From Moniliella sp. 'wahieum' (taxonomy: Eukaryota; Basidiomycota; Moniliellomycetes; Moniliellales; Moniliellaceae): a stretch of DNA of 64,000 nucleotides. Positions 9,684 through 63,465 of the stretch are shown here, one piece after another; positions within the stretch are counted from its first letter, which is position 1; each line of letters begins with the position of its first letter. The notes below the pieces were generated by a model. The model worked only from the letters and a program-made list of their open reading frames with translations, did no database searches and was not told the origin of the DNA. The translations under genes were made by a program, and so were the position numbers. The stretch covers positions 868,001 to 932,000 of the forward strand of contig RSEE01000002.1 of NCBI GenBank assembly GCA_003971905.1, written 5' to 3'.

Positions 9684-9707
9684 TCACTAGTCACCGGTCA
9701 CCGGTCA
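9684..9707. repeat. TCA-N4 heptad array (CTAG, CCGG)
   Basis: Reads TCA-CTAG-TCA-CCGG-TCA, then another CCGG-TCA. Two different palindromic tetramers share one 7-bp phase. Confidence 0.75.
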
Positions 9708-9742
9708 CCACAGAAGTTGTATTGTCTTACTGTCTTGATCGC

Positions 9743-9868
9743 GTCCATTTCATTGACAGAGCTTAAGGCTGGGACAGGGGGAACGCTGCGTCTAAACCTA
9801 ACCGTTCATCTTGCGGGGGCGACTTGGAAGCGCCACCAAGGTTAAGGAACCAAGGGGGTCGCCAGGAT
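9743..9868 (-). repeat. Dispersed repeat copy B (terminal about 125 bp only)
   Basis: This copy keeps only the 3'-terminal part of the family (CATTGACAGAGCTTAAGG, GGGACAGGGGGAACG, AACCGTTCATCTTGCGGG), in reverse orientation. Loss of the 5' part with the 3' end kept is what 5'-truncated insertion of a non-LTR retroelement would leave; that reading is inferred. Confidence 0.7.
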
Positions 9869-10086
9869 AGGGTTAGATGTGTTGACGTTTTTTGAGGCTC
9901 GCCAGCGCTTGCCCTGGCCCTCCGCAACCCAAAAGGGGGGAGGACAAATGTGATTGGCATGATATAATGCTGAGCGCGCTGAGGCGCTGTGCCTCAGCTC
10001 TCAGGCTGAGAGATCTGAGATCGATTCCTATTACGCAGACGGAGAGGAAAGCCGCTTTATTGGTGGGGGAATAGTCACCAATTTAA

Positions 10087-10110
10087 TGACATGTGACATG
10101 TGACATGTGA
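10087..10110. repeat. TGA-CATG heptad array
   Basis: Four TGA triplets separated by CATG in exact 7-bp phase, about 480 bp upstream of the P450 start codon. Confidence 0.75.
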
Positions 10111-10589
10111 CACCGTCTCCTTTTTCACGTGGACCATCCGTCGGGCGTTGCACTTGCACCCTCGTACTCTTGCCCTCTTGCCCTCTTGCACTCGTGCACA
10201 TTTTCTCTCCCCAACCGTTCATATAAAGACTCGGCGCTGAGCCCATCGGAGAGGATTGCTCCTCGCAAAATCGGACAGGCGCTTGCGCTGATACTGCTGC
10301 CAATTGGACATATGCATGGGCGCACGATCACGTTCACGCGCCAGTCCGATAGAACCCACCACACCAGGCTCGGCCCCCACACACTGAATCCCACCTTATT
10401 CTCCCCAAACCCGATAATTACTCAGCACAATAATTATACGTACTAGTAAACAGCCTATCTTAAACAGATAACGAGACCTGTGTAACTTAAAGGAAGAGCA
10501 CCCCCTTCCCCCTGCCTTTGCTCTGACGGTTTACCACCAACCTCCTAGAGTGCCCTTCCTCCCACGTTCCACGATCCGGCATTTGGACC

Positions 10590-12389: not shown

Positions 12390-13449
12390 GCGTGCGACGA
12401 GTTGGGGTCCGCGAGAGTACTTTTTGACCAGTTTTCTCTCTCCTGGTTCGTTCCCCTGTTCGACCTGTGTTGCAACGCATGCCGCGAAACGTTCCAGTAC
12501 GATAATTTGAAGAAACCGTATAGTAGAATGGAAAACTACGCGTTTGATGCTTGGTGATGATGAAAAAGAGATGCTCTAGAGGCAAGGCGATGCGGAATAT
12601 GTGCACTTAGTAGTGTCAGATCACACCGTGCTAGGGGGCCCTTGCCCACTATAGGCCCGTATGGGCACTATGGCGTGATTCCTATCAGTTGGGAGATCCT
12701 GTGTCCACCTCTCGACTGTGCCCCCTTCCTGAGGAAGTCATATACCTCCTCTGCGTCCATAGATGTATGCAATCCATCTGCTTCCCTTCCCCCGTCTCCG
12801 TCTCCTGACAACTAGGGCGGCTCTCCTGTTGCTACTAAGGCATTATGCCCTGATACCTTCCAGTATATCGTTAGGTTGCTGAAAGAAGTGTCGCCCAAAC
12901 CGGATGAGATACCCAGTGGTGGTCCATTATTATTGAGACGCCCGCTTGCTGGGTTTAGGGAACTTTTGGTATCCAGTGGGAGAGGTTTAGCCTTTCGGCC
13001 CAAGGCAGGAGAGAAGAAAATAAGAAGATGGAAAACTGCTGCATGTGCGGCATTTCTCGATAGTGAGAAAAGGAGACACAGCAGAGGCATATCGATATCA
13101 TCACATCTTTTTTGTTCGCAATTGGGATGGTAATGAAAGGTGTGCATTCAGTTCCGTCATTCAGGTCACTGAGATAAGGCTGAGATCGACTGAAGGCAGG
13201 GACCCCGTTCGCTCTTCAGCTTCTATATTAGCGGAGGATATACTGGCATCATCTTTTGCCTGTCTATGTCAATTGATCCGTTGAACAATCACTCTATCAT
13301 AACACAAAATGGCACTGAGGGCCGTTGCTTATCTTCCGCCTTATCTCCGTACATCGAAGAGGAACTCACCTCTCATCTCCACCGGCAAGCGGAAAGCGGA
13401 CCACTAATATGGCCTTTCCCTCTTTTCAGGGGGCCAATGGGATCTCTGT
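12390..13449. other. Intergenic, no gene seen
   Basis: Short frames only. No tRNA or recognisable protein was found between the P450 and the foldback repeat. Confidence 0.45.
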
Positions 13450-13935: not shown

Positions 13936-15403
13936 AGTTACAGTCTGGTGAATACAGCTGTCTTATCGGAATACGGCCCCATCCTTCATCTCGCACAATG
14001 GTCAATTCGGGGTCATATCTATATCTGTTGCCGGTGCATGGACAGCCGCCCTATCGCGTGTGCTCCACCCACACGGGTGCAATGGACAAGTGCACCACCG
14101 TGCCTCGGGGCGACAAAAAGGTAGCGGGGAAAGCACTCAGGCGCGAGTGAGGCGTGGAAGAGAGCAAAGAGAGAGGAGCGAGATTCCAACTTACTTTTTT
14201 TGCTGGTCTTGTTATCTAGCCAGCTCACGTTGGTGCTATTAGTGATACGATCGGATCCCGGAACAAGCGAAAAGGAGATGATGAGCAAGAAGTCATATGA
14301 TTGATAGGGATTCATTGCTGTGGTGAGCGAAAGAAGAAGGTATTAGCGAAGAGAGTTGGAGGTTGGAGGCAGTGTCAGAAGAGATGATGACGCGTGACGA
14401 GGTCATTTCACAGCCGAGGCTCAGTCCTATTAGGAGAGGTGCTTCAAGCTTCAAGCTACACGCTTCAGGTGCCACGGACTTCCGCTTGTAAGTGCTAGTA
14501 GCTCTGGGTGGAAGCGGCGGAACCCGTAGTCTGGCTGTCATGCTCTCAGTTCTAATACCCAGCACTATGGTATCTCAAGGCACTCGCACGAGCCGCTTGT
14601 ACCGAGTGACTATTAGTGACTTACTGATAGTGATGCATGATGGATGAAGGTCTTTGTCCAATCCACAGAGGGGCCTAAGCCCTAAGCCTTAAATGGCCCA
14701 ATGGCCTATAGGGGACCATGGCGTATCCCTTCAATCTGAAGGCAAGTGCGAACCGTGCGCATATCTCGATATGGGGATTGCAACGTAGGATCCCTCCCTG
14801 CGTTGAATATATGGTTACCGGTTACCGGTTACCCGTGAGCCAGTGTGCGGCTGTGGCGCTTGCTCTGTATGTCTCAGATACGAGTAATAGCAAACCACTG
14901 CTTGTCCATATTCAACGCATTAACCGGTAACGGACAGCGCTGTAGTGATTATAACGATTGTGGCGCAGATAAGATAAGCCCTTGGGAGGTTGCTCTGGCC
15001 CCGTGCTGCTCGCAGGGTGCATCAGGGGCAGCGCTGTGGACAGTTCCCCTCTGCCCAAACGTCGCCAGGCTGCTTACGAGGACCCTCGCCTAACCCATGG
15101 CGTAATGCTCGCATATCTGACATCATTGCATTCTCTCCAGGTAGCCGGCTATATTTCGCACGCGATGGTCCGCAGCCGCACGCGTGACGCGTGAGGCGCG
15201 AGAGGAGGTAGCAGCCCTCTATTCTGCAAGACCATGCGACATTATCAGTCGGATATCTGCCCGCCGGTACCTGGTTTTTCGCATTATCTTCTTGCCACCC
15301 TCCCCCTCCCCCTTGCCTTGAAAACTGCGGAGACCAAGGTGCGATAATATGTCCTTGACGCCACACCTGCCTCCTGCTCCTCCTTCCAACCATCACCGCC
15401 ACC
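13936..15403. other. Intergenic / permease promoter region with heptad arrays
   Basis: No gene was recognised. Heptad arrays lie at 14444-14457 (TCA-AGCT), 14815-14838 (TTA-CCGG) and 15181-15194 (CGCG-TGA twice). The last is about 210 bp upstream of the permease ATG. Confidence 0.5.
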
Positions 15404-17324: not shown

Positions 17325-17907
17325 TGATACCCTTTTCCCCTTTGATAAAGGATCATGGCCACTATGGCCAACATGATTCTGCCCTTCGACATTTTCTTTC
17401 TGAATGATGAATACGCACGTTCTACCACATCCGGTCTAATGGGTCCAAACCCTTTGTAAACACAGATAAAGATAAGCAGGCTCCACTGGCAAGCACGGAG
17501 GCATCCTGTTGATGCTGGCCTCCGTTCTGGGAGGGTTGCCATTCTCCCTTTGCAGCTCAAGCCATTACAGTTAGCTACGCCCATGCTCGAAGAACTCATG
17601 AGCCACCACTTCGTTTCTGAGTGGGTTTATTCCCATTGCTACACATGATTTGCCTTGCCACTAGCTCTGCTGTAGAGGGTCATGGTCGTGCCTGGAAATC
17701 TATGGCAGTGCCCATATGGGATGGAAACACGCCTGTCTTCCCGGGCGGGCCCTGTACGTCTCCACCGCTTCAGAACCGAGGAGGGTCTTACACACCAGCA
17801 ACTCGTCAGGACCGCCGTTGGCTGGTAAGACGCATAAAACCCACTTAACCCCCACATCCTCAGTCGGCTATCATGGCCTGACCCGAACCCACGCCTTGAA
17901 TCATATC
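17325..17907. other. Intergenic, no gene seen
   Basis: Tail-to-tail spacer between the permease (+) and the basic hypothetical gene (-). No recognisable feature. Confidence 0.5.
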
Positions 17908-18997: not shown

Positions 18998-19780
<783 letters not shown>

Positions 19781-20629
19781 TTAGGTCGCATCATCGGCCA
19801 GTACTTCAGCCCCCGGTCGGGTAGTCTCTCATGCCCACAATATCTATCACGGTCCCATTGTGACGGAGGTCATCATCAGCGTACACAGCATGAAGAGAGG
19901 GTAATGTAGTACTTGCTAGCCCGATCATTTTTCTTGATCCGTCAAAAGCGCATGCCTACCAAACACAGCTGTTACGTTCGTCATCGACAACCAATGAACC
20001 GGTACTTAAACACTAAACACTAACCCCCGTCTCCGCTTTCCTCACCTATCGCACGAGCAAACAGGGACTTCACCATTAGATCGACTATGCTTTTGTTTTT
20101 GTTCTACATATCATCTTGGAATTACGATGCTGTGTTACATGTTATAGTAGGACCGACAGCTTTGACCGTTGAGACGGTTGGCGTTGATTGATGTGTGGGT
20201 AACCGTATTCGATAATCGGTGTAACCGGGTATTGGGGTCGTGTAAACGCCCTCATACATAAGATGTGGTATGTGCAGTGGTGCTGAACGAGTGGAAGGTG
20301 TGAGATGTGAGAGGTCACCGGGGGTTATGCATGACATGTCGATGAACCTTGAAGCTTGAAGCTTGAAGGTGTGTGGTGTTGACTGGGTTGAACGTTCAGT
20401 TGAACGTTGACTAGTTGCTAGTGACTAGCGACATGCCGACTCCACTTGCCGAAAGAAGCTGTCTACATGACTAGTGACTGCCAGTCGGTAAATTCAAATT
20501 GAATCCCGAATCATTGATTGAACGGCCGGTGGTGCACACGACCGGTTATAAGTGTGGAAGACGAACGGAAGTGAGGGAGGGATGGTTGTTCTATTCCAAG
20601 AAGAAGCTTCTCGACACAGGAAGGATACA
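19781..20629. other. Intergenic with TGA-AGCT heptads
   Basis: No gene. The array at 20343-20366 reads TGA-ACCT-TGA-AGCT-TGA, then AGCT-TGA. At 20390-20412 AACGTT occurs twice in a looser arrangement. Confidence 0.6.
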
Positions 20630-20672: not shown

Positions 20673-20751
20673 GAATTCGAGGGGAGAGTCGGACAGGAAG
20701 GAGTGATTACGAAATGGTGGCATGCCGGCGTATTTGCAATCACGCCAACAA

Positions 20752-21281
20752 TAAGGCCCAAGGCCTAAGGCCTAAGGACCGGTAAGGTGATGGAGCGGGT
20801 GATTGAAAGTGAACATTGAATTCCGATGCGTTGGAGCGCTGAAGGCACAGCCCGGCACTGCGTGGTGGTGCGGGCGATGGCCGTTCGATGATCAGCGATC
20901 GATGAAGGTGCCGTCGGCATCCTTGCTGAGTGCATGACTGCCGCCGGGAGCTGCAGGCATGAAAGCGTGCTACGTCGATCTGTGTTCCAGCCAACACAGT
21001 CCCCGCGCTAATTTGCCGCAAGCGACTGGCGTTTGGCCGTGTGGTCTGTAGCCCGCACAGCGGCAGAGAGGACCGTCTTGGCGGAAGGGCTGTGGGCCGG
21101 GGTCACTCGCCCTGTGCGATGCTGCTCAGTCGCCGGTTGTCAGTCTGTGGCCTGGTGCTGGTCTGTCGCGGCTGCTGGCTCAAGGCCTGAGGCTGAGCGC
21201 TCAGGCTGAGCGCTGAGCCTCAGCCTCAGCGCTGGACCTGAAAATCGTAGATTGTCCATCATCGATCATCGATCATCGATC
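20752..21281. repeat. Promoter-side heptad arrays (GGCC, GCGC, TCGA)
   Basis: 20752-20779 is a TAA/CAA-GGCC array. 21181-21236 is a dense palindromic block built from TGAGCGCT and GAGCCTCAG words. 21259-21279 is TCA-TCGA repeated three times. All precede the TM-protein gene at 21625. No coding sequence was recognised here. Confidence 0.6.
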
Positions 21282-21600: not shown

Positions 21601-21624
21601 CACGCTCTTTACCATGCCTGGCCC

Positions 21625-27088: not shown

Positions 27089-27568
27089 CCCTGCCCTCTA
27101 AAAATCCACACCTCCCTCCCTCCCCTCCCCTCCCCTCGCTCTTCGTCTAGTACCACACGCAGAATTGATGCAGCAAGTAGGAGAGGTAGGAATGACGATG
27201 ACCCCCCAGGTATTGGCATCGTTGCCTCCGCTTGGTTCGATGCTCACGTGCAACATCCCGCGTGTTGGGGGTCGTGTGCGAAGGCGCAGCCCCGCCCCGC
27301 CGCTCCACAGTCCACGCAGTCCGATGTGTGCCGGGAGCAGCAGCGCTGGAATTGCAAAGTTGAAACGCCACAGCCGTTGCTTGAAGCTTGGACGTTCGGC
27401 GGGAACGATCGATGATCGATGATCGGTGGTGGCATTCCGCCCCATGCATTTCCGCCTCGAGGCCCCCGTTTCCCCACACCGCCAAGGCAGCCGGGAAACC
27501 CCATTTACCCTGTCTGCAGCGTGAATCGCCGCTCTGCCGCAACCAAGCTCCATCCATCGGCGCCCGCT
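27089..27568. other. Intergenic with TCGA-TGA heptads
   Basis: Spacer between the OPT gene and PEX2. A heptad array at 27406-27426 reads TCGA-TGA-TCGA-TGA, about 145 bp before the PEX2 ATG. No separate gene was recognised. Confidence 0.55.
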
Positions 27569-29133: not shown

Positions 29134-30711
<1,578 letters not shown>

Positions 30712-31545
30712 ACGGCGGCCTGCCTCACGCGCAAGGCCCACCCCTCAGCCGACTGCCGTCCATTCCTCCCTCGCGCATGCTCTCGCCTTCATTGAGGTGG
30801 GTGCAAGCGTAAGAGTAGCGCGCGCGGGGGTGGATTAGCCCTATGGTGAACGTGGTTGTGCTTGCGGTGAAACCACTTTTTTGTCCTTCTTGCCTCATAG
30901 ATCATCGACGCCATAGCCTGCAGTTCAAACCGCACATCTTGGCATCGACTCTTGGCGGTTATTCATCGGTGACACATGCTCAAAGGTGCCAACTGAGCCT
31001 GTGTACAAGACGGTGGAGAGGATGACACAGAGGAAACGGCAGTAGCGAGGCGGCGCCCAAGGATGCGAAGGGGGGAGGGGGCTGGCAATGAAGTGGAGCT
31101 ATAGAGATCTGAAAGGCGGCTTGCTACCATGATGCATGATGCATGATGTAACAGGTGATCATGATGATCGATGATCAATGACGTGGGTAGGGCATCCGGG
31201 GTCGTGTTGTCGCGTGATATATGATGGGTGATCGATGGCCCATACTGCGTACTGGGTACTCATCGAGGCTGTGTCAGATTGTCGGATACGGTGAGCGCTG
31301 AGCCACTGAGAGGCTGAGCTCAGCTGAGCCCGAGGCACTGCGGCTGAGCGGCTGAGCAGGAAACCAGTGAGTGGTGGGTGACGGTGGGTGACTGGGCGGT
31401 GTCGGCCCACGGCGCCTGTCTAACCGGGCGGGTCAGCATGGCAGCCGCCGGGCGGAAGGCGGAGGAATTTTCTTGGGCCGCTGGGACCACCCCCTCACAG
31501 CGCCAGTGTGCCGGCACGTGCTGGTGGCGGCCCGAAATTTATCGA
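30712..31545. other. Intergenic / MDJ1 promoter region with heptads
   Basis: Heptads at 31130-31146 (TGA-TGCA-TGA-TGCA-TGA) and 31165-31181 (TGA-TCGA-TGA-TCAA-TGA), plus TGAGCGCTGAG words near 31290. No gene was recognised. Confidence 0.6.
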
Positions 31546-33199: not shown

Positions 33200-35352
33200 A
33201 GCAGGGGGTGGGGGGCTGCTGCGCGACCCCTTCCCCCTTTTCCCCTGCTTGCATTCTGGAGCACTTTGGTCATGATAGGACCTGCTTCGTAACCAAGAGC
33301 CACTTGGCTCCCCATTTCTTCCAAAACGCGCACACGTTCTGGAGCCCCGATGCTTGGGGCTCTCCATATCTCTGTACATCACAACTCTTATCGCGAAACT
33401 ATAATCAATTGGAGCTGTCCTGCATGGAGGAATAGAGACCTTTTTGCTACAGATCGTAAGCCTTTTGTGTTGGGGCGATGCCCACGTCCTCTCTATTGCC
33501 CTCCATCAGGATTTTGTGATATTCGGTTTGCCCTCAAGGGGCGGCGGTGACAATCAGCACGTCTGCAAGAAACAAGGTGCGCAAGTGAAATAGGCTGTAG
33601 TAGGCATGTGGAGTCTTAGGGGGCTAAAGGGGGAGGAAAACGGCTGCCCTCTGCGGCGGGAGCGGGTCGGGTACGGGTAAAAGTAACCCACAGAGACTAT
33701 AGGGTCCCCCCTTTTAAGATGTGTGTATGTGTGCACGTGGGTTAGGGAATTGTGACACAGCCGAATACCCTTCCGTTAGCCCCGGAAAAACCCTTCGGTC
33801 TCGCTGTGCATAGCTATTCAAGGTATACCATTCCTCAGAGCAAGAAGGGAAAGGTATGTGAGAGGTGAGATGGCATTGTATGTTACGCGTATGGGGCGCA
33901 CCGCCTATCTCCGCACGCTGAACCCCGCATGTCTTAGACATCTCAGCCCAACACGCGGCAGTCCTGTTAGACTAGCGAGAGAGAGCCAGTCGACACCTTA
34001 TCCATGCTGGGGATATTATCGATCATCCGCGGCCCGCCATGGTCGCATGGAACCCATCAACAAGGTACCGAGTGTGCTAACCCTGAGGAACAGAGTAACT
34101 TCGGAGATCCTCGACCCCTTCAACTGGTCTGAGATCTGACGACCTACGTATGCGGCTCCTATCTCGCAGGGTCTGAGCTGCGGCCTTGGCACGCAGCCAC
34201 CCTAAATGGAGGGTCTCTCCTTCGCCTCTACACCCGCTCGGTTCAACCAGGATCTGAAGTAGGACCTAACGTGCGAGACACCGACGATTGGCCTGTCCAA
34301 GAGTTTATTATACCCTTAAAGTACAGGGGGGGTCCCACCTCGGGACTCCCCCCCATGACATGCATGACAGGTGACATTGTATAGGGCCGAGAGCAAAAAG
34401 CTGCATGTGGTAGGAATCTATACATCAGGGATAAACAATAGATTTTGGCGCTGAGAAAACCCTGTGTGACTCTGCCTGTCTCTTAACAGATATGCATTCG
34501 TCTTGGGGACAACTCAGGCCCCCATATATCTGGGATCCAAATCGATCTGGAAGGGGACAGATTGTGTAGTTATGCATGGCAAGGCTGCGTAGTACCGGCT
34601 TGGGCGGCTGGCAGTAGCGTGTCTGAAGCCTTCGGGTTCAGGGACGGAGAGGAGGCAGCGGAGGTTTCACGCTGCTGGCCTAGGGCCTGACTGAGACCGG
34701 GGCGGCGCGGCTGTAGGCGGGATCACACGCGGCTGAACTGGGCTGGACTTGGGCTGGGGAAACTGAGAGCTGAAGACGGGAGCTAGAGGAGCAACTAAAA
34801 GGAGGAGTTGCCTGTACTGCATTGATCAATTGGCGAGGGAGTAGGGGGGAAACGCCAATGGACCGTGGGGGCAAGCCACGGATCATTGCTAACAGACAAG
34901 GACAAAAAGGGAAACAAGGCAACGGAGGAAGAGCGGAGAACAGGGGAAACCAGGGAAGACACAGGGAAGACAGCTGCTGCGCGGATGACAGCCTAGAAAG
35001 GTAAGGTAAACAGGCATGGGGCGACTGATGTCGTAAAGGGGGTTGCCACAAGCGCAACACAGAGAAGTCAGATAAACAAAAGCACGGGGCGACTAGCGTC
35101 GCAAGGGCGATGAAAACGGGGGGAACCACGAAACTGGGGTTCTCAATCCACTGGGGCGAAAGGCGACTACTGTTGCTCGGATACGTAGACTGATAATCGC
35201 GCTGGCGGTTGAGCTAGCCGCGATGGAGAACAACTGAATTGAATCTGAGGGCGCGCTCTGTTATTGGGAAGAGGGGGGCCCTCAGCGCGCCTCAGCGCGC
35301 CTCAGCTGAGATCAGATCGGATCGAATCTGACTCACTAACCAACCTGGAAGG
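33200..35352. other. Long gene-poor stretch, nothing identifiable
   Basis: No convincing coding region. 33840-35170 has the look of repeated or mobile sequence: GGGGCGACT words recur near 35016, 35086 and 35154, each with a GTCG-type partner. No reverse transcriptase or transposase motif was found. Confidence 0.4.
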
Positions 35353-35405: not shown

Positions 35406-36522
35406 TATATAAACTCCGTCGGGCTTGCCATAGACCGTCTTCGCCCGTGACAATATCCGCCCTCTGTCACGGTCCTCATAGCTATTCGGGTAAATCTTTT
35501 CACTGCTCTTGTCGCTGATCCTGTTTCCCTTTCCCCTATTAATACCAGTGCATCCTTGCTTCCCTTGGTACTTTTAGTCTCACTCGTATATCGCCCGACC
35601 CTTACATGTTACACCCACCCCCCTAAAATGAAACAGATGATCACCGTGCCGTGACCACACCACAGTGCCTTCAGTGCCCATCTGCACATTATATGCCACG
35701 CCGCCCCGGTCACCGGTCATCGGTCACCGCTTAACAACACATCTCGGAGGTTCCGATGGTTTCCAGCATCCTACTGGCCTTGAAAAAGCATCTTGAAGGG
35801 GGGGGATAGACGAAGCCACCCCTGCCTCCCCTAATAGCTCTGATGCAATATACCAGCTTCTCTACCTTTTTGCCTATACTGCTAGTTATAGGACCGTGAC
35901 TCTTTGGTTTTCTTTGTCACGCGGCACGTACGAACCCGTATAGCAACCCGCATAATGGTGTACTTTTGGTGCAGCCTATATGCCCTGGCACTCTAATGTA
36001 TAGGAAAGCATATGTTACCCCTGCTTAAACGCCCCCTTTAGATAATAATGTGGATAGCTACAAATGGCAGAGATTAGGTGCGATCACTCAATCATTAAGC
36101 CGGGAGCAAATTCAAGCTGATGAGAAGGCCCGAGAACTCTGAAGCTTGAGGATAACTCCCCCTTTTGATGTCTCAAGGAAGAACGAAGAAGCATCATTGA
36201 ATCCTATTGAACCCTTCGCTGCGGTCACATGATGCATGATACCACACCAACACCTTTTCATCAGGTATAGACAACTTGCGCCAATGGATGAAAAGGGGAA
36301 ACCCCTGGAAGAAGGGGACAAGAATCGAATGCTGATGTGAATGTGCAATTGTATATATAAAAAGAGGAGGTACACATGGATCATTGAAGATACCCATATC
36401 GCCCCTTTGTTGTGTGCACTCTCGCAGTGTATAGTTCTGCGCCATCAACAACGCCGACACAAGAAACATTGTGCCCATCCTTCCTCTTCATCTCCATCTG
36501 CGATTCAGCCGTTGAGCAAAAC
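35406..36522. other. Gene-poor stretch with one CCGG heptad array
   Basis: A TCA-CCGG-TCA-TCGG-TCA array lies at 35710-35726. The rest is AT-richer with no recognisable gene. Confidence 0.5.
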
Positions 36523-39664: not shown

Positions 39665-40906
39665 TATGAGCGCACACCAGGATCGATCCCGCTCTCGCTC
39701 TCCGCCCCGCATTACACTCAACGCTCACTCCTCAGTATCAAGTCTTTGCAACAACAGACAGAGGCAAAGTAGGCCCGGGTATCACCATGTTATGTTTGTC
39801 TTGCCCATTTTCGGTTTTTTTCTTTCACAAAGCATCATGTGCATCATGTCCTCATTGCAATCACTGTGCCCTCTGGCTGCGGGGGAAAAGGCGCAATAGA
39901 GAGCAGTTGATATATATATTGGCCAGATTTTATCTTTTTGTCGTTTTTACCTTCCGCACCAAGGCACTCTCGAAGGGCGGTGAAGCCGGTGAAGCTTGAA
40001 GCCAAGTCGAAGATCCAGATCTGCCTTGGCCTACACACATCTCCCCTCCACATTCCCCCCTTAATCCCCCCCCTTAGTTTGATGGTTAGCCTAGAGTGCC
40101 CACGCGCAGTATAGGCGCCCATTACGGTCGGCCAAGGCATCATGAGGGATGGATGGCGTTGTAGGGGGAGGGGGGGATATATCTGCTCGACACGTGTGGG
40201 TGCGAAGGAGGGGATCATGGAATTAGTAAAGCGCAGGAAACAACAGTCAACAAACATTATGTGCATCACATGCTCCCTAGGACAAACGGCTGTACATCCA
40301 GCATTATTGCAGGCAATATAAGTGTAATTAGATTGAAGGGATACGTTATGAGCCTCCAGGGCACAAGCAAAGCTAGATTCATCTTCTACGTTCCGTGCGG
40401 CGCACCTGGCTGACCTGGACGGTAACAGATGAATCAAGAGACGAGGATGGGACGGAAGACCATTGGTCTTTAGGATCCGACCTGACCCGACCCGACGCGG
40501 GCACTGACATTCGGCTGCGCGGTGCGCCTGCAAAAATCTAAGAGGGTAGGGCAAATTCGAGCCAGATAAGAAGTAGTATAGTCCAGGGAGTAAAGTAGGA
40601 AAGAGGCCAACAGCAAAACAAGATAAGGAGCGGGGGGGGTGTACAGGAAGAACCTTCAATTAAGGCGTGGGAGCGAGTGTGGGGGGCTAGGTAAGACAAG
40701 CGGACGAGACTGCATCCACGGGGAAGAAAACGTGGATCATCGCGAACATCTCAGAGTTGATGGGAAAACTGGAAACAATCACCAATCACCAATCACCATT
40801 GGTATCCGGACCGCGCTTGGGCGTCCGCACGAGCTTGACGCACCGCGTCGCGTGATCCAGAGGGAAGGAGCGTGTTGGGAAGGGTGCGTGTACGTGTACC
40901 ATCCGC
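39665..40906. other. Intergenic, no gene seen
   Basis: 3' flank of the hypothetical gene and of the GH79 gene (tail to tail). Only short frames, with a TGAAGCTTGAAGCC word at 39988. Confidence 0.5.
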
Positions 40907-44458: not shown

Positions 44459-45536
44459 GATGGCGAGATGAACCGCGGCCGCAGATACACGGGGCTGGAC
44501 GCGGGGGAGAGAGAAGAAGGGGGAGGAGAAGGAGAAGGATCGGGTGGAAGAGGAGGTGGTGGGGGCCGGTGGGGAGCGGGGCGACGGAGGCGGCGGTGCG
44601 GGGAGGCTGCATGCTGGTGCTCGCGGGCGGTCTGCCGCAGCTGGACGGATGGAGCGCATGGAGCGCAGGCAGCTCGCTCGCTGTTCTGATGGCTCGCTCC
44701 CAGCCAGGCTCCACTTTTGAGCCTGCTCGCTCCCGCACACGCCCCCACGCACGCGCTGGTGCCAGGCGGATGCTCCGCTGGATGGATGCCCATCATCCAT
44801 CATCGACATCATCCATCATCCATCCCACACACGACAGGGTCTCGCAACATCCTCCCTCCCCACGGCCACTGCCCTCCGCCCCGCCCCGCCCGCCCTCCCA
44901 CGTCGCTGGCCAGGGCCCACCAGTCAACATGCAACGAAGCCACTCAGCCACTGTACTCAGGCTTGGCTCAGCGGACAGCCCCAGACTCAGCCACTGGAAG
45001 CTTGATCCCCATCGGTCCCCCCATCCCGCTCGTATTGGCTTGCCACGCGCTAATGAGACCAGCTCCCCGCAGATCCAGCTCCAGCGCCCAGCAGGCTCCA
45101 ACTCCAGCGCCAAGCACCACCCTCCACTGAATATTGAATCGCGGCCTGCACAAAGCACGTGCGGCCCACCCATCCCATCTACGTCCCTGCCGGTCTTTCG
45201 CCAGGCACTGCCTGAGCTCACGTGTTTGTACAGACAGACATGCACTTCGTTCGTACTACGAAGCCAGAAGGCGTTTTGGCGCAGTTTTGCCAATACAGAA
45301 GACCAACCTCAATCTCGATCTCACCAGCCACCCTCGTCGATCACCGATCATCGTACATCATGCATCAAAGTTGAGCGTGCATCCACCGTCAGCAACGTTG
45401 AGTTCTACGGCAACAGCGTGGCTGCCCCCCCCCCGCCTCGCCTCAACATTCAAGCTTCAAGCTTCCAGTTCCAACCTGTTCCAACGCTGAACGCTGAATC
45501 CCAAGCTCCGCTGCTCCTCGCATCTCACCCATCACA
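44459..45536. other. GH79 promoter and spacer; long frame judged non-coding
   Basis: CATCATC-type heptads (TCA-TCCA-TCA-TCGA and TCA-TCCA twice) lie at 44793-44825, about 340 bp upstream of the GH79 start. TCA-AGCT-TCA-AGCT is at 45450-45463. A long plus-strand frame covers the region but is compositionally biased. Confidence 0.45.
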
Positions 45537-48517: not shown

Positions 48518-50536
48518 GGTGGAGAGGGGCGGTGGTGGTAGAAGTTGTGGGGGCAGCTAAGAGGCGAGATCTGCATTCCTTCGGCAGTCATCGGCTGATG
48601 TGTTTATTTGCGGGTGATGACGTGGAGCAGGCAGGGTGACCGGTGACCGGTGACCGCCATCGTAGCACTGTGGCTCCCTGGATTATCCTCGGCGCATGCG
48701 CCTTCCCGTGGACTCCGGTGCTACCGACCGAAACCACTTCCACTCGAGCCTTCGTCTCCCTCTGTGCGCGCGACCAACTCTCCCTACTAGTGTTACAGGT
48801 TATACGCGGGCCTCCGCTTTCGTCCGCCCCCCAAATGCAGCGGAAGCGTAGTCACTAGTCACTATCAGGCCGATCGGACCGGAACGGTCTGGTTATGTCC
48901 GGCGTGGCCAAAGCGGCCACCAACGTCCCTATACGCATCTTTGAGTAGCTTTCCCAAAGGATCCATTGGCGTCTCCGCCTCCCTTTCTTCAGTCCTGTTG
49001 GGCCACCGGGCGGCTCGTGCTTGGGCCCAAGCCCCTTCAGTCCCCCTCAGGCCTAGGAATTCCTGTTGTATTGTCTCTCTCATGTTTGTCTTTGTTCCGC
49101 AGCTTAGCCCCTGGTGACAATTCCCTGCTTGATGTTCCTCTGTAGTAGGTGTTGCTGGTTGGCTTAGACCACCACTACCACAAGTGCGATTGCATCTAGC
49201 TCCACAGTTTGATGCAGGAAAAGATGACGAGGTGGAGAATTGACCAAGTCCAAAACATCTCCAAGCTGGCTAAACAGCAGTGTGCACTCTGTGGGTAACC
49301 CAGCCCCCCTCACTTCGCTTATCAGCACAGCGCAAGACAGAGCCGTCCGGTGTGCTGAAGCGAACTCACATCTCATAATCCTCACCCTCGGCCGGTCGTC
49401 GGTGGTGGAAGCACTCCTCAAGCGGCAGCCAAACACCGCACTTTTCCCTTCTGGTGCTGGAAGCGCCCCGGGCATATGGGGCCACAGCACGGCGGCCAAC
49501 CTATAGCCAAGGCGGGGATCGATACGCTGCTCATACCGGATGCCAGTTTGTATACGCGTAGATGGGCAAGATGACCAAGGCTCAGTCGGTGGGCACTTTA
49601 TGTTTTAGCCAGTGGCGCCAAGGGGATCGAGGCGGGTGGAGAGGTGGTAGCTACGGCAGCCATTGCAAGATACACTCCACCCCCTTCATCATTGTAGCGG
49701 ACACGTACAAGGTCTGTCCCAACTGGGACCACTTCCCCACCAAGACGGCGCATTCCCCATACTGCAGCCCTACCTTTCTGCCGCGCTCGAAGAGCAGCTT
49801 GGTCCCCGGCCGCCACACCATTGGGTTGGTCACGCCGCCCTGCCATCTCACCTTTTGCTTTTTGTCCTTAGTCTGTTGCTCTCGTACGCCAGGGGTAGCA
49901 GAGTAACTGTGCCTTGTCCTTTCCTTCTCTCTTTCTCTCTCGCTCACTCCGGAGAGTAGGGGGAAAGGGGAAACCTCACAATGCACTCCAATGGCAAATG
50001 CAATCTTGTGAATCAACAGCTGGAGGAGTGCACGAGAGACCAGAGATGGGTTCCGCGACGTCCATCACATCTCTGCGAGGTGAGCCGGAGGCGGAGGTAC
50101 AGCGTATCAATGTCATGCCCCCCGCCCGTCTTAACTCGGCGCCTACGACGAGAGGAGCTGAGGCAGCAGCACTTGGGCTGAGTCCGTGGGTCGGTGGGTG
50201 GGCGCGGTACAATACTGAGGTACTTTGGCCTGGGAGCGGGCAAGCGACAGCAGGGTGCACTAAGGCTGGGAGCACAACGAGCTCGATGGATGGGACAAGT
50301 GTTGAGGAGGAACAACAATAGGACCCGTGGGCCCTCAACAAGGATATGCTTATTGAAACAACGTAACGGGGAGGCAGGATGGGGAGGAGGAGGATATGGA
50401 CAACAAGTGTGGAACCGAACAAAACAATACAAAACAACAACGTCTGTGGTGAGGTATATAGATAGTAGACGACGGAGGAAGCGGCCGAGGTGAGGGCGTA
50501 GAGCGACCCACAGCCGTAGGTGAGGGGAGGCAAAGG
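48518..50536. other. Gene-poor stretch; frames of uncertain meaning
   Basis: TGA-CCGG-TGA-CCGG-TGA lies at 48637-48653, about 120 bp upstream of the MAPEG start. 48860-50030 has several frames on both strands (for example a minus-strand one with GTDLVRVRYNDEGGGVYLAM near 49700) that could belong to a broken gene. I cannot assemble one. Confidence 0.35.
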
Positions 50537-52312: not shown

Positions 52313-52336
52313 TGATGCATGATCGATGATCGATGA
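52313..52336. repeat. Mixed heptad array (TGCA, TCGA)
   Basis: Reads TGA-TGCA-TGA-TCGA-TGA, then TCGA-TGA. Two tetramers share one 7-bp phase. Confidence 0.8.
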
Positions 52337-52365
52337 TCCCCATATTCTCAACGAGCCGACCGTGG

Positions 52366-52455
52366 AGGAGGATGGATCACACGCTGCGCGACTTGGGAAC
52401 TCACGAAGCGCAAGCCGCGTACCGGAAGGTGCAATGGTACATGAGAGCATCGCGA
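52366..52455 (+). repeat. Dispersed repeat copy E (internal fragment)
   Basis: GGATGGATCACACGCTGCGC and CGCAAGCCGCGTACCGGAAG correspond to the MEVDHTLRDTG...AQSAYRRV coding part of copy F. The rest of the element is missing. The fragment lies directly after a heptad array. Confidence 0.65.
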
Positions 52456-52502
52456 CGTGTTAATAATATCACACGGCACGCGTCACGTGTCACACGATTC
52501 AA

Positions 52503-52532
52503 TGATGCATGTCACATGTCACATGTCACATG
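52503..52532. repeat. Heptad array (TGCA, then TCA-CATG)
   Basis: TGA-TGCA is followed by TCA-CATG repeated three times, ending about 165 bp upstream of the metallopeptidase ATG. Confidence 0.75.
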
Positions 52533-52696
52533 CTCACACGCCTACCCTGACACGGGCCACGGCCACACCCAACACAAGATCGCACGGCAAGTCACCCGGC
52601 CATGTACTTACATACATAACATGAGCATCTTGAACGACCTGAACGGCGAAGGACTCGTGTTCTTCCCTCGCCGTTCGACCTTCAACTCTAGGCAAC

Positions 52697-55190
52697 ATGT
52701 TTGGCTCCAAGAACGCAGCGCCGCAGATTGTGGTGCAGAATGTGGCGAACGGGAAACAGTATACCAGCGTGTGCTGATTCTTCAAGGTGTAGTAGAGAAC
52801 TATACTGCCCCGCGGGGCACGCTTCTGGTCGCCGCTGCCGACGGCAAATACGATCCACTTGTCTGGCAAATCAATCATGGGCACTTCAAGGCGATTGTTC
52901 CCCTCTCTCCCGGCACGAATGAACTGGCTCTTCAGTTGTTCAACGGAGAGTACACCCACGCTTCCCAGATTCTGCACTATGACGGCCGGGCGTGGCAGCA
53001 GCACGAGCGAAGCCTTACCCAGCTGCCCTTCAGCATTTGGTACCAGCGCGACCGTGGAACTCCACCGCTTCATCTCGCAATACTCGTCGCCAAGGACAGT
53101 CCTTCCCTCCGGGCCCCGGATGAGGCTCCAACGTCATCTCATTCAGGCTTGTTGAGCCAGTTGGGACGCAAGATCGCTAGCCACACCAACGCCGGGACAC
53201 CCCCACGCGCCTTGGTAGATGCACCACCGGGAGAACAGGCACACCATCTGCGCTCAATGAACGAAGTTAAGCGCCGCTTTGCTCTGCAGGCATACCTGTG
53301 GCAGGCGTTCCAAGGGGAGCAGATGCACCGTCAGGGCCTGGGCCGGCGCACGTTTGCCCTTGATGACAATGATGGCGACGATCAACCCAAGATGGGTCAC
53401 CGGCAGCGTGAGGTGAGTGAGTACCCCACCGTGCACGTGCTTGTCTCCGACCATTCGGTGGCCGAGTTCCTCGACCCCGACAATGCTCAGCAGAACCCCA
53501 ATGCCAAGAATGATGGGGCAATGCACACTTCGCCTACGAAGCCCTTTCTTCGCCTCAGTGCCCCCAGGCCATTAGGCAGGCCACCAAAGGGCCGATCGCA
53601 GTTCTGGTGCTTGACACGCACTGGGATCCTTCTATTCCCCTTCTCCGTGGTCACGCGGCAGTCGGGTCCGCCGACCCGGGGGGTTTATCGTTTGGCGTAA
53701 TGGGGAGTCACTGGATCTGGGCCGCACCACATGGGCTTGATGAGCTAACGGAAGCGATGCAAAGTCACGAACGGACGGACGAGCGGTTTTGTGTTAATGA
53801 TGTAGGCGAATGTGGGTACGCATTCGAGACGCTCAACATTGGTTCGGGCGCGTTTGTGCACGAAGTGGGCCATGCATTCAATAACCCCCATTGGCCGGGG
53901 GGAATCATGCTTCGTGGGTACGTTGAGTGGAACAGGGCGTTTATGACCTGTGAGGGTGCCCGCACCCAGCGGCACGCCCCAGGCGAAGAGAACGTGAACC
54001 CCATTACCCCAGCGAACGACAGTGGCATGAATTACCTCCACCGACTGCAGGCGGTGAGGGGACGCTGGCATCCATCCCAAGCACTTCCCACGGACCCGCC
54101 TCTTCCCTTTTACAACTCCAATGCCGGGCCCGAAGCTTACCGCCTCTGGTGCTCTGCCGAACCCACGTATGAAGCTGGGGTCAACGGTTTGGAGGTCAAT
54201 GCTCCCTGTGGAGTTGGCGCGATCGAGATCTATACCAAGCCCCAAGGCGAGGGGGGGGACGGTGACTTGACCACGCATATCGAATTTACAGGGCTGCAGG
54301 GGGGCCATGCCCCTCCGTCGTCCTTGTTGCTCGATCCCAAGTGGATGTCATCGCTGGTGGGATACGACGTGCTTGATCCCTCGGCGCGCACGGTGAGGAT
54401 CAACGTTGTGGCCTGCAACCTGCGGCAGACGACAGTAGAGAATTATCGCACACAAGCTTTTGCAGTGCCCATTAATCTGGCCGACGTTCCCTTTGGACTT
54501 GCCAAGGGCTCCTTCTCAGGCCAAATGGCTGGCCCAGAGTGTCTGCATGTCTTTAAAAACAGCTACTCGGCTGTTCATATGACTGCGTTCATTGTACGCG
54601 CAGGCGCCTATATGGATGGACTGGAGGTCGAATACTCGGATGGCACGCGTTGGAGCGAGCTTTCAGGCGGTGGAGGCACAGCCTACCGGTTTGAAGTCCA
54701 TCCGGGTGAGTACCTCGCTGCCATCAATGTGCGGAGTGGAGCATGGATCGATGCTCTCCAGCTGGAACTAACAAGTGGGCGCAAGAGCGACTGGTACGGG
54801 GGAGGTGGAGGCGGGGAACGCACGCTTTCTTTTGCCGGCAAAGAGGTGGCAGGGCTTACGGGTCCACCAACGGGTGGCTATATAGTTTGGGGCTGCTACG
54901 TCGCATCTAGCGCACACATACTCCGTGTAGAAGCTCCCTTGGTCTCTTGTACACTTTTTACAATGACACGCGCATCCCCCTCTTTCTCTTTTAGCATGTG
55001 CTGGGCAAACAATGACTTCACCCGGCCACGAGACGGTTCAGTCCGACCAAACGTTCCTCAAACAAGGGAAGCCGCAATACTCCCATATGTGGGTTGCTAC
55101 ACCTCCCGTATTTTTTCCACCTGCACCAGACGAGATGGCGTGGTTGCTGTCGACCCTCGGACCGTGCCACGTCCACCCGTATACCATTAA
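52697..55190 (+). CDS. Zincin metallopeptidase with C-terminal jacalin-like lectin domain (YIL108W-like)
   Basis: Putative metalloendopeptidase family found across fungi. The start MFGSKNAAPQIVVQNVANGK leads, after a frame change near 52775, to LILQGVVENYTAPRGTLLVA and KAIVPLSPGTNELALQLFNG. The zinc motif HEVGHAFNNPHWPGGIM (near 53862) follows MGSHWIWAAPHGLDEL. The C-terminal jacalin-like region (about 54500-54900) shows VHMTAFIVRAGAYMDGLEVE and YLAAINVRSGAWIDALQLEL. A second frame break lies near 53600. The last about 80 residues to the stop at 55190 look like read-through rather than protein, so the true end is probably near 54900-54930, perhaps after another lost base. No signal peptide is seen, so cytosolic location is likely. 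Confidence 0.82.
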
Positions 55191-59014: not shown

Positions 59015-59353
59015 CCGAACAAGTGTCAATGCAAACCAGGGTAGTTTTTTTAAGCAAATACTCGGCGAACCGACAGATCATCCTCAACAGGCGCTAGGGC
59101 CGCACGCTTTTCCTTACGCTGTTACAGGGCTGATATAGCTGCGGTTACGCGTGTTACGCGTTACCACGTTACCAGTTACCCTTGGCCGTTGGCTAGGTTC
59201 TGAGCCCAATTAAGACGGAAAGGTGCTACATGTTCTCGGGTACTTTAACGCCCTGCGCGGGAATCGTCATGATCAGAAAGAGCACCTTTCACAAGTACAG
59301 AACCGCAGACAATAAATGAGCGCAATACAACGAAAGGCGAAAGGGAACGTTTG
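59015..59353. other. Intergenic with loose TTA-CGCG repeats
   Basis: 59144-59172 contains GTTACGCG twice followed by GTTACCA-type words, a looser relative of the heptad arrays. No gene. Confidence 0.5.
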
Positions 59354-62300
59354 TCACCACAAACGAGCGCCCGAAGCGGGATAGAGAGCTAGTGTGGGGT
59401 GTGGGGAGCACAGGGCTAGGAAGGGTATCAAGACTTTTTCCCAACGAGCAACGACGGTCACCTGAAGTAAATATTGGCTTGAAGCTGATCGAGTAGAATC
59501 GACTAGGGTGCGCGGGACAGCCAGCGCATCGCCTGAGGGAGCGGAGGCGCCGGCAGTTGGGTTGGAGGCAAGGGGAACCAAGCTCGTGTCTGAGAGGAGC
59601 GCGGCAGAGGATCCAGACAGACCAGGTTGCTTGGGGGTGGAGCCAAGCAGGGCTTGGTCGGCCTGTGCTTCGAGCAATTTAGTGTACTTGTCCTGCCACA
59701 AAACACGATTATGCTCTTCTTCCTGTACACGGGAGCGGAAACTGGCCAACTGGGCCTGTAAGGCATTCAGTTCCTCCAGGAGACCAGAAACTTGGCTCTC
59801 CATTGCCTCTTTGACCGTTTGGGCCTCCGTCCGGGCTTGCTCCGCTTCCTTCTGCGCCTGGAGAAGTTCGGAAGACAGTTGGGTCGTGGGAGCCCGTTGC
59901 GCTTGCCTATGCAATTCGCTCAGCTCCATTTCGAGGTCTTTCACCCTCATCGAGAGCGCAGCAGGGTCCATTCCCAACGTTACTGTCCTCAGCCCGGCAC
60001 GGGAAGGAGTGGTGGGACGTGCAGGAGTCGTAGGGCGGGAAGGCGTGACAGGTCTCCGCCCTTTCCGACGGGAGGAGGACATGGGGCCTTTGCTTGCTGA
60101 GGATAAAGTCTGAGCGCGACGGCGGGGCATGCCCATGCCCAGCCCCTCGGCGGAAGGAGTGGTGGTCGGAAGCCCGCCATTAAGAGAATGGGGAGAGGCC
60201 ATTGGGGCGGAAGGAAGCGAATAGAGCTTGTCATGGGAGAAGCCAGGGAGAGAGGAAGAAACCCCTGGCCACGGTTGGGGCGAACCCGCACCCGAAGATG
60301 GGGAGGCTGAAATGGACGCCGATGGGAGAGGATGAGTCCAGCTCTTTTGGACAATCGCTTCAATTTTGTTCAAGGCTGTGTGGATTTCAGCGATGGAACT
60401 TGAACGGCGTGGAGCACTGGCATGCAACATCGAGCAATAGGCTTGCCAATGCTCCTGTAGAGCCTTAGCAATTTCCTCGGCCTGGTGGACACGCTGAATC
60501 AAATCCATAATATGCGGCGTCACAGCCGCCCAGCGGAGTGATAGCGGGAAGTTATTGTCCCAGTTCCAATGGAGAGGCGAGTTAGACGTAGGCGAGGTTG
60601 GAGAGGTCGACATGGTTTCAAACTGGGCCGCTAGTGCAGCAAAGCGGGCATTCTTCGCCTTGGGTTCCCCAGATGAAGGCTGCGGCTTGGCAGATGACGA
60701 TCCGAGACGTGCAGACGCACAGCCCCTGGGGAAGAGTGTGCAGAAGAGCGAGTAAGCCTCCTCATCGGAACGAGTGTCGAGAGCCAAATTGGTGTCCAGT
60801 GGACTGGGCGGGTAAGATCCAGGGTCGTAGAAGGGTCAGCAGGAGGTGATGGAAGTTCTGGGTCGCCGAGGTGAGAAAGTGCCGAACGGATCAAAGCAAG
60901 TTCGGTCTGGAGGGTGGAGAGGTCCGGCAGCGCACCAACGGAGGGTGACCCGTCGACTTGAACATGCTCCATGTACAACTGCCGCGGTGAGGACGATAAG
61001 TTCAAGGGGGAGGTGCGGTGGGTCTTGTATCTCTCAACGAACCCGTACGGATCAAAGAAGGAATGTTGAGGGGTGTCTTTCGAGGTGGTAAAGCTGGTGG
61101 AATCTTGGGTGCTGGTACATCCGAGAGTACTTCCTCAGTTGCGCGTCCTTCCGTTGAAGGTTCGACATCCTCGACAGGTTTGGGGCTCAGTTGATCAGAG
61201 AGAGATTGGAGGGACCGGCTCGGCGCAAAGCATAGCCTTTGATCCGCTCCAACTCATCGAGCAAGTCGGCAAAGTGAGTTGAGAGGCGATCGACCAACTG
61301 CTCGATATCTGCGCCCGTATCCTCGTCTTTGCGCGGTAAAGCTTGCCCCATCTTGATCTGGGATAAGAGCATATCCATCTCATCCGCCCATCCACCTTGC
61401 CCAATGCCCGCGCTGCCGATTTTTCCACATCTCGCAATCCTTCTTCGGCCTGCAGCAAGCGATCAGCAAAGAGCGAAATGAGTGGCTCCCTGACCTCATC
61501 CTTCGTTTGAAGGGCAATCAACTCGTCGGATTTCTGGGACAGCTGAACTTCGGCCCTCCTCCTAGCACCCTCTGCGCAACCAATTGGGCTTGAATGGTCT
61601 CCGTCTCATGCCGTGCTTGCTGTACCTCAGCCCTCAGAGTGGCTGACTCGGCCAAAGCAGAGCCTCAACTGCAGTTTGGTCGGAAGCGTCGAGGACAAAG
61701 TCCGCTCCATATCTCTCCTGTCGGCCAATGCATGCTCCAGATCACCCCGGGCCGACTGGGCTCTTTCTGTGCTTGGGTGGCCGCTAAGCGGGCGCCTTCG
61801 AGCTTCCGTTCGAAGCGGTCAGCCATTGCGCGCTTGCTCCATTTCTTGCTGCGCGATACTGAGATCCCTACGGGCATCCGTGCCTGTTTGAGCCACGTCT
61901 CGTTCTTGCACCACACCGCGTACTGGGCTTGAGCTTCAGCCTGAACCGTTCGTGTTGCTTCAGCCAGTTGGGAAATCTTAGGCGCCAGAGAACGTTCCTG
62001 CTGGGCTAAGCGGGAGGCAAGCTGTTCCTGGTGCGTAGAGCGAAGATCAGCCAGTTCAGTGGAGTGCTGCGTTTGGATTTGGCTCAATCCATCCCGGACT
62101 CGCGCCAGTTGAGTCTGTGCCTCATCACGTTCCCTCTGGGCTGCAAGAAGAAGTGCCGAATCGGAGCCGGGACGCCGCAGTGCCTGGTCCCTCTGAGCTG
62201 GGGTAAGAATTGTGGGCAGCCAAAGCGGAAATGTGATGCTGCAGTACATCTGAACGCAACCTTGATGCCTCCTCTGTAGCCTCCAGCAGCTGGGACGTCA

Positions 62301-62733
62301 ATCGCGACGTGGACGCAGAAGAGGTATCGTCGCTAGCTGCATCCGCACTCGGTGGAAAGGTACCATGCAGAGTATCGTACGCGTTGCGTAGGGCCGACTC
62401 CAATCGATGGCGCTGTTGCAGGTGCTTGACTCGCCTCTCGGTGCGGACGAGCGCGACCTGCGTGTCGGTCAGTTGCTCCGGGGGGAGCAAGCCGCCATGG
62501 ATCGCTGGCCGCAGCTTGTCCGCCATCAGCGCCTCCGGGGGAGGCGCATGCGGGCCCAGCAGCACCTCCATCAACGCACTCTCGGATACGTTGGGGGTGG
62601 CGCTGCGCTTCGCCATGGAGGGCGTGCGAGGCGGTTGGGGGGTGAAGCCTGAGGCCGCGGCGGCTGCCTCGCCACGCTGCGTCGCGGCCAGCCTGGGCCC
62701 CACACTGCCCTCGGGCCTCCAACCCACAGGCAT
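59354..62733 (-). CDS. Coiled-coil protein with Uds1-like N-terminal domain, frame-broken
   Basis: The N-terminal part (from MPVGWRPEGS at 62733, or MAKRSATPNV at 62616) contains SALMEVLLGPHAPPPEALMA, LLPPEQLTDTQVALVRTERR and KHLQQRHRLESALRNAYDTL, resembling the 'up-regulated during septation' (Uds1) domain. About 700 residues of coiled coil follow, broken into several frames (ERDEAQTQLARVRDGLSQIQ near 62130; RLLQAEEGLRDVEKSAARAL near 61430; LVDRLSTHFADLLDELERIK near 61270). The C-terminal 477 residues are one open frame, with a Ser/Pro/Thr-rich part (SRPTTPARPTTPSRAG) and a final coiled coil (LLQAQKEAEQARTEAQTVKE). A role in septation or the cytoskeleton is suggested by the family only. The end at 59354 may follow a lost frame. 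Confidence 0.65.
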
Positions 62734-63465
62734 CACGTGATGATCCCTGGTGCATGATGCATGATGCGCCTCCTGGCTCCGCCTCCACGCTGCCGGAGGG
62801 CCGCGCACACGAGCAGTGTCCATTCCCCAGACCCTGGCAGCAACCCTACTTGTCCCTTGAGCGCGTTCGCCCCAGTACACTGACGACGGCTCACGCGCTC
62901 ACACAAGGAGGCCCCCGGTCAGTCGGCGCTGCTGGGCGCAGTTCTTCGTTTGCACGTTCGCATACTGGGCGCCCTCGGACCTCGCGGCCTCAGAGACGAG
63001 CCTCATCCCTCGCCGATCATCTTCGCCCTCATCCTGCCAAAATCGAAGCCGGTGGATTGAGCACTGGCGTGCCAATGCCGTTTACAGTCGAGATGTGGAA
63101 GAAAATTGCAGGCAGGCTTATAATACCTTAGGGTTAGTACAATATCGCAGAGCTGGCACGGTAAATGTGGGTCGCATAATACTGCCACACAATCGTTACG
63201 CCCAAAGGGAGGCGGTAAACGTGGTAAACCCGAAACATAGAATGGGCACTGAGCCTCAGCGCTCTTATTACATGCCACGTACAGAGCGTAAGCATCAGGC
63301 TGATGGCTGTGCCATGAGGCTCATGTCGCTGAGCTGAGCGCTGATGCATGAAGTTTGATGCAATGGGACAAGACACTCGGCACCTAGTATCAGGTTCTCC
63401 CGATCGTTCAACGCGTGTTCTGTTTGCTAGGGCCAAAAAGCCAAAATTATACTAGAAAGCGCGTG
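62734..63465. other. Intergenic with TGCA heptads
   Basis: 62751-62768 holds TGCA-TGA-TGCA-TGA just upstream of the Uds1-like start. 63335-63351 reads TGA-GCGC-TGA-TGCA-TGA. No gene was recognised. Confidence 0.6.

Follow-up and report, generated by a model that had tools for sequence, protein, structure and literature searches.

Palindromic heptamer repeats in Moniliella sp. 'wahieum' as probable scars of double-strand breaks at a 7-bp NNTNANN target

A stretch of 64,000 nucleotides from the basidiomycete Moniliella sp. 'wahieum' (GenBank assembly GCA_003971905.1, contig RSEE01000002.1, positions 868,001 to 932,000; hereafter the window, whose own numbering is used below) carries many copies of a 7-bp unit, consisting of a triplet T-N-A and a self-complementary tetramer. 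The tetramer follows a firm rule: it is templated by two nucleotides (nt) of the flank on one side. We conclude that the palindromic heptamer is probably a scar, formed when a double-strand break at the 7-bp target NNTNANN was repaired after the excision of a cut-and-paste element; the anatomy of the scars makes a mobile element behind them likely.

The assembly comprises 69.5 Mb in 223 contigs, with both haplotypes present. The allele of the window is found in reverse orientation on a second contig (C50), with 94.6% identity over the aligned bases (about 5.4% differing). The sample outside the window consists of 200 kb of C50, a stretch that in part represents the allele of the window; totals from the window and C50 together (264 kb) therefore count scars common to both haplotypes twice, among them the 17 that are identical in both. 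Dinucleotide shuffles served as the null (20 for counts of periods, ten each for pairs of triplets around a tetramer), and the frames ANT, CNG and GNC served as controls for the TNA grammar.

The periodicity far exceeds chance. Of tandem repeats with 12 or more matching positions, the window contains 16 of period 7, against 0.0 in the shuffles, and between 0 and 2 for each other period from 4 to 30. The excess over shuffled sequence claimed in the original prediction is thereby confirmed, and the units it described are present at 19 of 19 distinct coordinates, some starting a few bases off or with one imperfect unit. In the window, 32 period-7 repeats have a match run of 8 or more; 21 of them obey the grammar of T-N-A plus palindromic tetramer and 11 are of other kinds. 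In the 200 kb of C50 the grammar holds for 70 of 96 period-7 arrays. Every array that obeys it, in the window and C50 alike, has T and A flanking the free base. Pairs of TNA triplets with the same N around a palindromic tetramer number 66 in the window (1.6 expected) and 306 in C50 (7.3 expected). Pairs with different N show a smaller excess, 7 against 5.7 and 61 against 18.9, which mutated scars would give. The control frames around a 4-bp palindrome are near chance, the largest count being same-N GNC (32 against 21.0). Same-N TNA pairs are at chance around a 2-bp palindrome and slightly over chance around palindromes of 6 bp (3 against 0.7 and 7 against 1.3) and 8 bp (2 against 0.2 and 6 against 0.8). 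All 16 palindromic tetramers are used in the sampled stretches. A preference for TGA and TCA, which had been proposed, differs little from the background frequencies of TNA triplets, the genome being GC-rich, and is essentially base composition.

We denote the ancestral site as xyTNAzw, with a prime for the complement. The common scar adds 7 bp and reads either xyTNA-zw w'z'-TNAzw (right-templated) or xyTNA-y'x' xy-TNAzw (left-templated). Cases that fit one type exclusively are divided into 78 right-templated and 77 left-templated scars, hence both flanks are used equally often. The rest of the classification consists of variants with a 1-nt addition (4 + 4), plain 7-bp duplications (26), ambiguous cases that fit one main type and a 1-nt variant (61) or all types (115), and three duplications that also fit 1-nt variants. 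Among lone units, the flank dinucleotide is matched on at least one side in 190 of 228 (left only 82, right only 75, both 33, neither 38), where chance gives about 1/16 per side. A scan of 225 ways of keeping or adding up to 4 nt per side leads to the same two types; among the best 45 of the 225 that were inspected, (2,2,0,0) and (0,0,2,2) rank first, with 224 against 0.6 and 222 against 0.2 expected. The next in rank, (2,1,0,1) and (1,0,1,2), reach 153 and 152, of which only 4 and 4 are not main types or plain duplications, and were set aside.

A second class adds 9 bp, consisting of two full copies of the target around two inverted nucleotides. In the scan, xyTNAzw + w'z' + xyTNAzw occurs 31 times against 0.0 and its mirror form 24 times against 0.2, whereas the ANT, CNG and GNC counts for the two +7 and two +9 types are 0 to 6 each. 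The class comprises 47 distinct sites (about 0.2 expected), and the addition derives from the left copy only in 23, from the right only in 16 and fits both in 8. A +11 type has 2 cases against 0.0. Plain 7-bp duplications number 144, against 23-50 in the control frames, mostly via overlap with other types. The copying of two nucleotides in inverse orientation would also be expected of template switching during replication or repair synthesis, which writes a short inverted copy. Such switching gives no reason for the fixed 7-bp duplication, the exact 2 nt or the requirement for TNA, and a fold-back would invert N, which is the same in 372 of 440 TNA-tetramer-TNA pairs and complementary in 36; we regard it as very improbable.

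The duplication has a fixed length of 7 bp and the form NNTNANN. Among maximal repeated 7-mers with a 2-nt spacer, the spacer is P-type in 24 of 52, 17 of these being NNTNANN, and it is P-type in 0 of 12 maximal 8- and 9-mers. For 5-mers, 120 of 312 spacers of 2 nt are P-type; these would be the +7 class parsed in a different way. The target logo of 157 one-sided events consists of T-N-A, with every other position at most 0.081 bit from background: T-N-A is the sole target requirement. The tetramer was also considered as a remnant of element ends beside a 3-bp TNA duplication, as in Harbinger-like elements; this possibility was discarded, since it is the flank that sets the tetramer, and a duplication of 7 bp is needed to produce the +9 class.

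The chains of units number 290 in total, of which 228 are lone units and 62 contain at least two, up to six. The view of the pattern as arrays therefore holds in part: arrays exist, but lone units are commoner. Arrays of up to six units, mostly of one tetramer, and alleles that sometimes lie two whole units apart are what replication slippage of hairpin-forming 7-bp microsatellites would leave, with no break involved. As an origin, slippage is improbable nonetheless. It does not account for the predominance of lone units, neither the +9 class nor left and right templating is among its products, the tetramer changes within 12 chains, and the excess is confined to TNA, although hairpins of ANT, CNG and GNC would be alike. 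For the same lack of a comparable excess in other symmetric triplets, an origin as CNG-like repeats was dropped; growth of any existing repeat unit in the manner of microsatellites does not agree with lone templated insertions and a TNA-only excess.

Comparison of the haplotypes shows the scars as whole insertions. Among 67 TNA-tetramer-TNA clusters, 26 are found in both haplotypes, 21 in the window only and 20 in the allele only, some differing through a point change. In an automatic test (at most 2 mismatches in 21 bases) 16 scars have a shorter form opposite, eight each way, with net gains of +7, +9, +14 or +21. Read one by one, these 16 pairs comprise 10 clean empty sites, 4 empty sites with a triplet substitution, and 2 (window 4620 and 35710) with merely a shorter array in the other haplotype. 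Of the further scars, 17 are identical in both haplotypes and 46 are without a resolved allele state. A paralogue of a dispersed repeat agrees with the empty allele at window 34128 (+7) and 34354 (+9), hence the scar is the new state at both. Opposite window 33998, the allele's TTA-TCGA-TTA is missing in both the window and the paralogue, and sits inside a 9-bp difference. The paralogue thus marks three scars as gains, the one opposite 33998 within that 9-bp difference.

The anatomy of the scars, a 7-bp NNTNANN duplication with 2-nt P-nucleotides, is the footprint expected of cut-and-paste excision through hairpin-capped ends. In the proposed mechanism, an element would insert through a cut with a 7-bp stagger around a central TNA, which creates a 7-bp target-site duplication, and its excision would leave flanks capped by hairpins. 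A nuclease of the host, of the Artemis/Pso2 kind, would open the hairpins at a point 2 nt 3' of the tip; Artemis opens hairpins by a +2 rule. The opened hairpins would carry 4-nt self-complementary 3' overhangs, zww'z' on the left and y'x'xy on the right. End joining that retains one overhang and loses the end of the other side would yield +7, one overhang joined to the 2 native nucleotides of the other side would yield +9, and retention of both overhangs +11. As TNA survives in the scar, the site would stay open to further hits, and repeated hits, perhaps aided by slippage, would build 7-bp-phased arrays, with a new tetramer at each switch to the other flank. The mixed array at 9684-9709 and others like it would arise because the flanks differ once a scar is hit again.

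Scars are not confined to the window and its allele. The motif TGACATGTGACATGTGA has 317 + 349 occurrences in the 69.5 Mb, its reversed control 0; it is the sole motif counted genome-wide, and the 264-kb sample, with 7 matches, holds about 2.8 times as many per Mb. On two further contigs, C20 and C40, one unselected 10-kb stretch each contains 15 and 25 scars, respectively, while the three control frames together give a single match per stretch. Scaled up, as an extrapolation, the samples suggest that the genome contains tens of thousands of scars. A gene-poor stretch of C50 (about 327,000-334,000) is crowded with TNA-palindrome scars, a single 2-kb bin containing 42 of them, and is possibly an old donor site or a fragile region.

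The original prediction held that no array lies inside coding sequence. The delimitation of coding segments used codon bias, learned from six segments with Pfam support, and gave 28.9 kb as clearly coding; detection from third-position changes had recovered 4.4 kb only and was abandoned. The claim stands for the clearly codon-biased segments, with 0 of 409 scars where the share of TNA triplets predicts about 36. It does not extend to open frames of at least 250 amino acids, which contain 46 of 409 scars (about 95 expected), many such frames perhaps not being genes. Freedom from scars in clearly coding sequence, together with the placement of about ten arrays upstream of start codons by the original prediction, is what one would expect if the arrays were transcription-factor sites of one family, alike in geometry but variable in their palindromic cores; this is one of the two readings first offered. 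The upstream position needs no regulatory role as an explanation, because a +7 scar would shift the reading frame, clearly coding segments are free of scars and the remainder of a compact genome is intergenic. Factor sites would moreover share a fixed recognition core; here 16 of 16 palindromes are used and the core is copied from the flank, and alleles opposite the scars are empty or shorter in the 16 pairs described above. The flank-templated tetramer, the use of all 16 palindromes and the polymorphism of whole insertions between haplotypes favour the other initial reading, an unusual repeat-generating process, and leave the one of factor sites with hardly any probability.

Several known systems share parts of this anatomy. 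Coding joints of V(D)J recombination contain even P-nucleotide palindromes from blunt hairpins that Artemis opens about 2 nt 3' of the tip, and Transib elements make 5-bp duplications. The V(D)J and Transib-RAG systems therefore resemble the scars in the even palindromes and differ from them in duplication length, 5 bp for Transib against 7 bp here. Footprints of hAT elements (maize Ac/Ds in plants, yeast and Candida) share palindromic P-nucleotides at the repaired junction, according to the part of the Candida study available to us (PMC5873905). In that study, sites of Ac/Ds excision show short deletions as well as palindromic P-nucleotides, which are ascribed to the opening of hairpins and end joining; 28 different scars occur among 128, and Pso2, which is related to Artemis, is named for yeast (PMC5873905). 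The classical hAT duplication is 8 bp long, against 7 bp with a TNA core and 2 added nucleotides here. As far as the accessible text of another study goes, 7-bp target-site duplications in basidiomycetes are described for Kyakuja and hAT7, and Kyakuja, a KDZ element of Agaricomycetes, ends in CA..TG without inverted repeats (PMC12730594). Kyakuja and hAT7 of rust fungi, as portrayed in that excerpt, thus share the 7-bp duplication with the scars; for neither is there a domain match in this genome (see below). A literature search with a 14-base repeat string returned 0 papers, and no report of genome-wide scars of this kind was found, judged by titles and the openings of abstracts.

The donor was sought by protein domains and by element ends. 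Nine Pfam families linked to DNA transposons were searched in the genome, namely KDZ, CxC2, the hAT dimer, hAT RNase-H, DUF659, Plavaka, 2OG-FeII_Oxy_6 (which we take to be the family of the fungal TET/JBP genes), MULE and DDE_1. Of these, MULE is the sole family with a match in a control genome. The integrase (rve) control gives 148 matches in the same genome. KDZ and CxC2 (PF18758, PF18803) have 0 matches, as have the hAT domains (PF05699, PF14372, PF04937), and for both groups the control genomes are silent too. A Pfam scan of ten frames, limited to those in or beside scar-dense stretches, gave one amino-acid transporter and no transposase. A search for inverted repeats would miss Kyakuja, since its ends have none. 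TNA-flanked 12-bp inverted repeats (20 pairs) fall inside the range of the controls (ANT 10, GNC 28, CNG 30) and were discarded as element ends, and counts of end dinucleotides in pairs of 7-mers are confounded by the scars. One candidate element consists of 235 bp between copies of CGTGACG (C50 local coordinates 111721-111969), with imperfect inverted ends that resemble scars.

These results bear on a related possibility, that no mobile element is involved and a nuclease that forms hairpins (a RAG-like protein or a domesticated transposase) breaks the DNA at NNTNANN, the same scars then resulting from end joining. The scar anatomy would be identical, the DNA-transposon families searched have 0 matches, and the scars are very dense in the gene-poor stretch of C50. 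A two-sided 7-bp duplication follows simply from an insertion, whereas a cut alone must join the ends of two sister copies; the nine families, to which the search for such a protein was confined, also yielded no candidate. We consider a nuclease of this kind unlikely, though less so than slippage, template switching or factor sites.

Against excision of a cut-and-paste element, in turn, stand several observations. No element flanked by an NNTNANN duplication was established in the 264 kb. A search for elements with inverted ends and a 7-bp NNTNANN duplication gave 13 pairs in C50, nearly all of them array-to-array and one of them the 235-bp candidate; the window and the control frames had 0 each, and none of the haplotype insertions of at least 40 bp is flanked by such a duplication. 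The nine transposon-linked families have 0 matches genome-wide, a weak negative as 8 of the 9 are silent in the control genomes too. On the side of anatomy, 38 of the 228 lone units match neither flank, P-type 2-nt spacers are in excess for 6-mers as well (25 of 70), and tetramers are mixed in only 12 of the 62 chains of at least two units, for which reason slippage may have lengthened many arrays. The Ac/Ds scar, in the portion of the Candida study at hand, is centred on the complement of the base adjacent to the element, whereas the palindromes here are even (zw|w'z') (PMC5873905). The 2-nt rule is also stricter than in the Ds scars of yeast, plants and Candida, as far as these are portrayed in the material consulted.

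The individual sites in the window illustrate these forms. The mixed array TCA-CTAG-TCA-CCGG-TCA-CCGG-TCA (9684..9709) switches its tetramer, as is predicted for successive flank-templated events. Two further arrays are mixed: TCA-TGCA-TCA-TGCA-TCA-ACGT-TCA (29452..29477), opposite which the allele is empty with CCA replacing TCA, and TGA-TGCA-TGA-TCGA (52313..52338), where the allele has no array. The +7 scar TC-TGA-GATC-TGA-CG (34128..34141) faces an empty allele with 0 mismatches and the +9 scar CATGACA-TG-CATGACA (34354..34369) an allele without the scar; the paralogue has neither, and both gains are thereby polarised. The +9 scars CATCATG-TG-CATCATG (39833..39848) and CATCATC-GA-CATCATC (44798..44813) also face empty alleles, and a further one, GGTAAAC-GT-GGTAAAC, lies at 63214..63229. 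The allele lacks the TCA-AGCT array at 14441..14457 and the TTA-CCGG array at 14813..14833. The TGA-CATG array (10087..10112) exceeds its allele by two units, and the TGA-TGCA array at 31128..31148 has a net +14, the empty site opposite having GCA for TGA. Shorter versions are found opposite the TGA-CGCG array in two blocks (4619..4662) and the TCA-CCGG scar followed by an imperfect unit (35708..35721), the allele of the latter being scarred as well. The allele carries one substitution at the TGA-CGCG scar at 15180..15194 and the TGA-TGCA array at 62751..62767. Common to both haplotypes are the arrays TAA-GGCC (20760..20777), TCA-AGCT (45449..45465) and TGA-CCGG (48635..48656), the scars TGA-CGCG (4531..4546), TGA-TCGA-TGA (31165..31174) and TCA-CTAG (48849..48864), in part the TCA-TCGA array (21258..21281) and, changed in the allele, the TCA-CATG array (52508..52532). 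The remaining arrays are TGA-AGCT (20348..20368), TGA-TCGA (27407..27425) and TCA-TGCA (29592..29611).

The window contains other repeats and insertions. A dispersed repeat of about 1 kb (8305-9238) has about 40 scored copies, a lower bound, with 84-88% identity on many contigs. Haplotype-specific insertions of 203-228 bp at 17707, 20548 and 23152 are flanked by 5-bp duplications (AGTGT, ATAAG and TGCCT, respectively); those at 17707 and 20548, and perhaps the one at 23152, have TG..CA ends resembling those of a solo long terminal repeat, and are unrelated to the 7-bp scars. Pfam matches in ten frames of the window, among them amino-acid permease, Pex2/Pex12, a putative metallopeptidase and ankyrin, agree with the fungal gene names assigned earlier; the match to the GH79 C-terminal domain is below the Pfam cut-off. 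The putative metallopeptidase (PF12044) extends across two overlapping frames (52330-55190), the second of which has a jacalin-like lectin domain. A scan of prokaryotes and viruses with one 21-mer returned 29 stretches and 1 stretch, in which 102 of 116 scar-like +7 units are CATG, the queried unit; short TGACATG arrays occur in several Prevotella and Streptomyces records. These stretches give no sign of the same process, their units being nearly all as queried, and the Prevotella and Streptomyces arrays are probably unrelated.

What seemed a regulatory code is a mutation signature with an exact rule, and the repeats are therefore unsuited to mining as promoter motifs. The scars form a genome-scale in vivo record of apparent hairpin opening and end joining, with a 2-nt rule and both sides used equally, for processes of which immune cells or Ds reporters are the usual material of study, and the rule can serve as an easy sequence test by which to recognise the process in other genomes and to trace the enzyme. 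We tentatively propose, as a possibility well short of an even chance, that the source is an undescribed hairpin-forming recombinase, belonging to a mobile element beyond the nine Pfam families or else domesticated, which cuts NNTNANN with a 7-bp stagger and makes RAG-like blunt hairpins. Such an enzyme might then, with similar reserve, have written tens of thousands of heptamers over time and in places rewritten whole intergenic stretches. If so, the genome would be a legible archive of the enzyme's break geometry and of the host's rule for opening hairpins.

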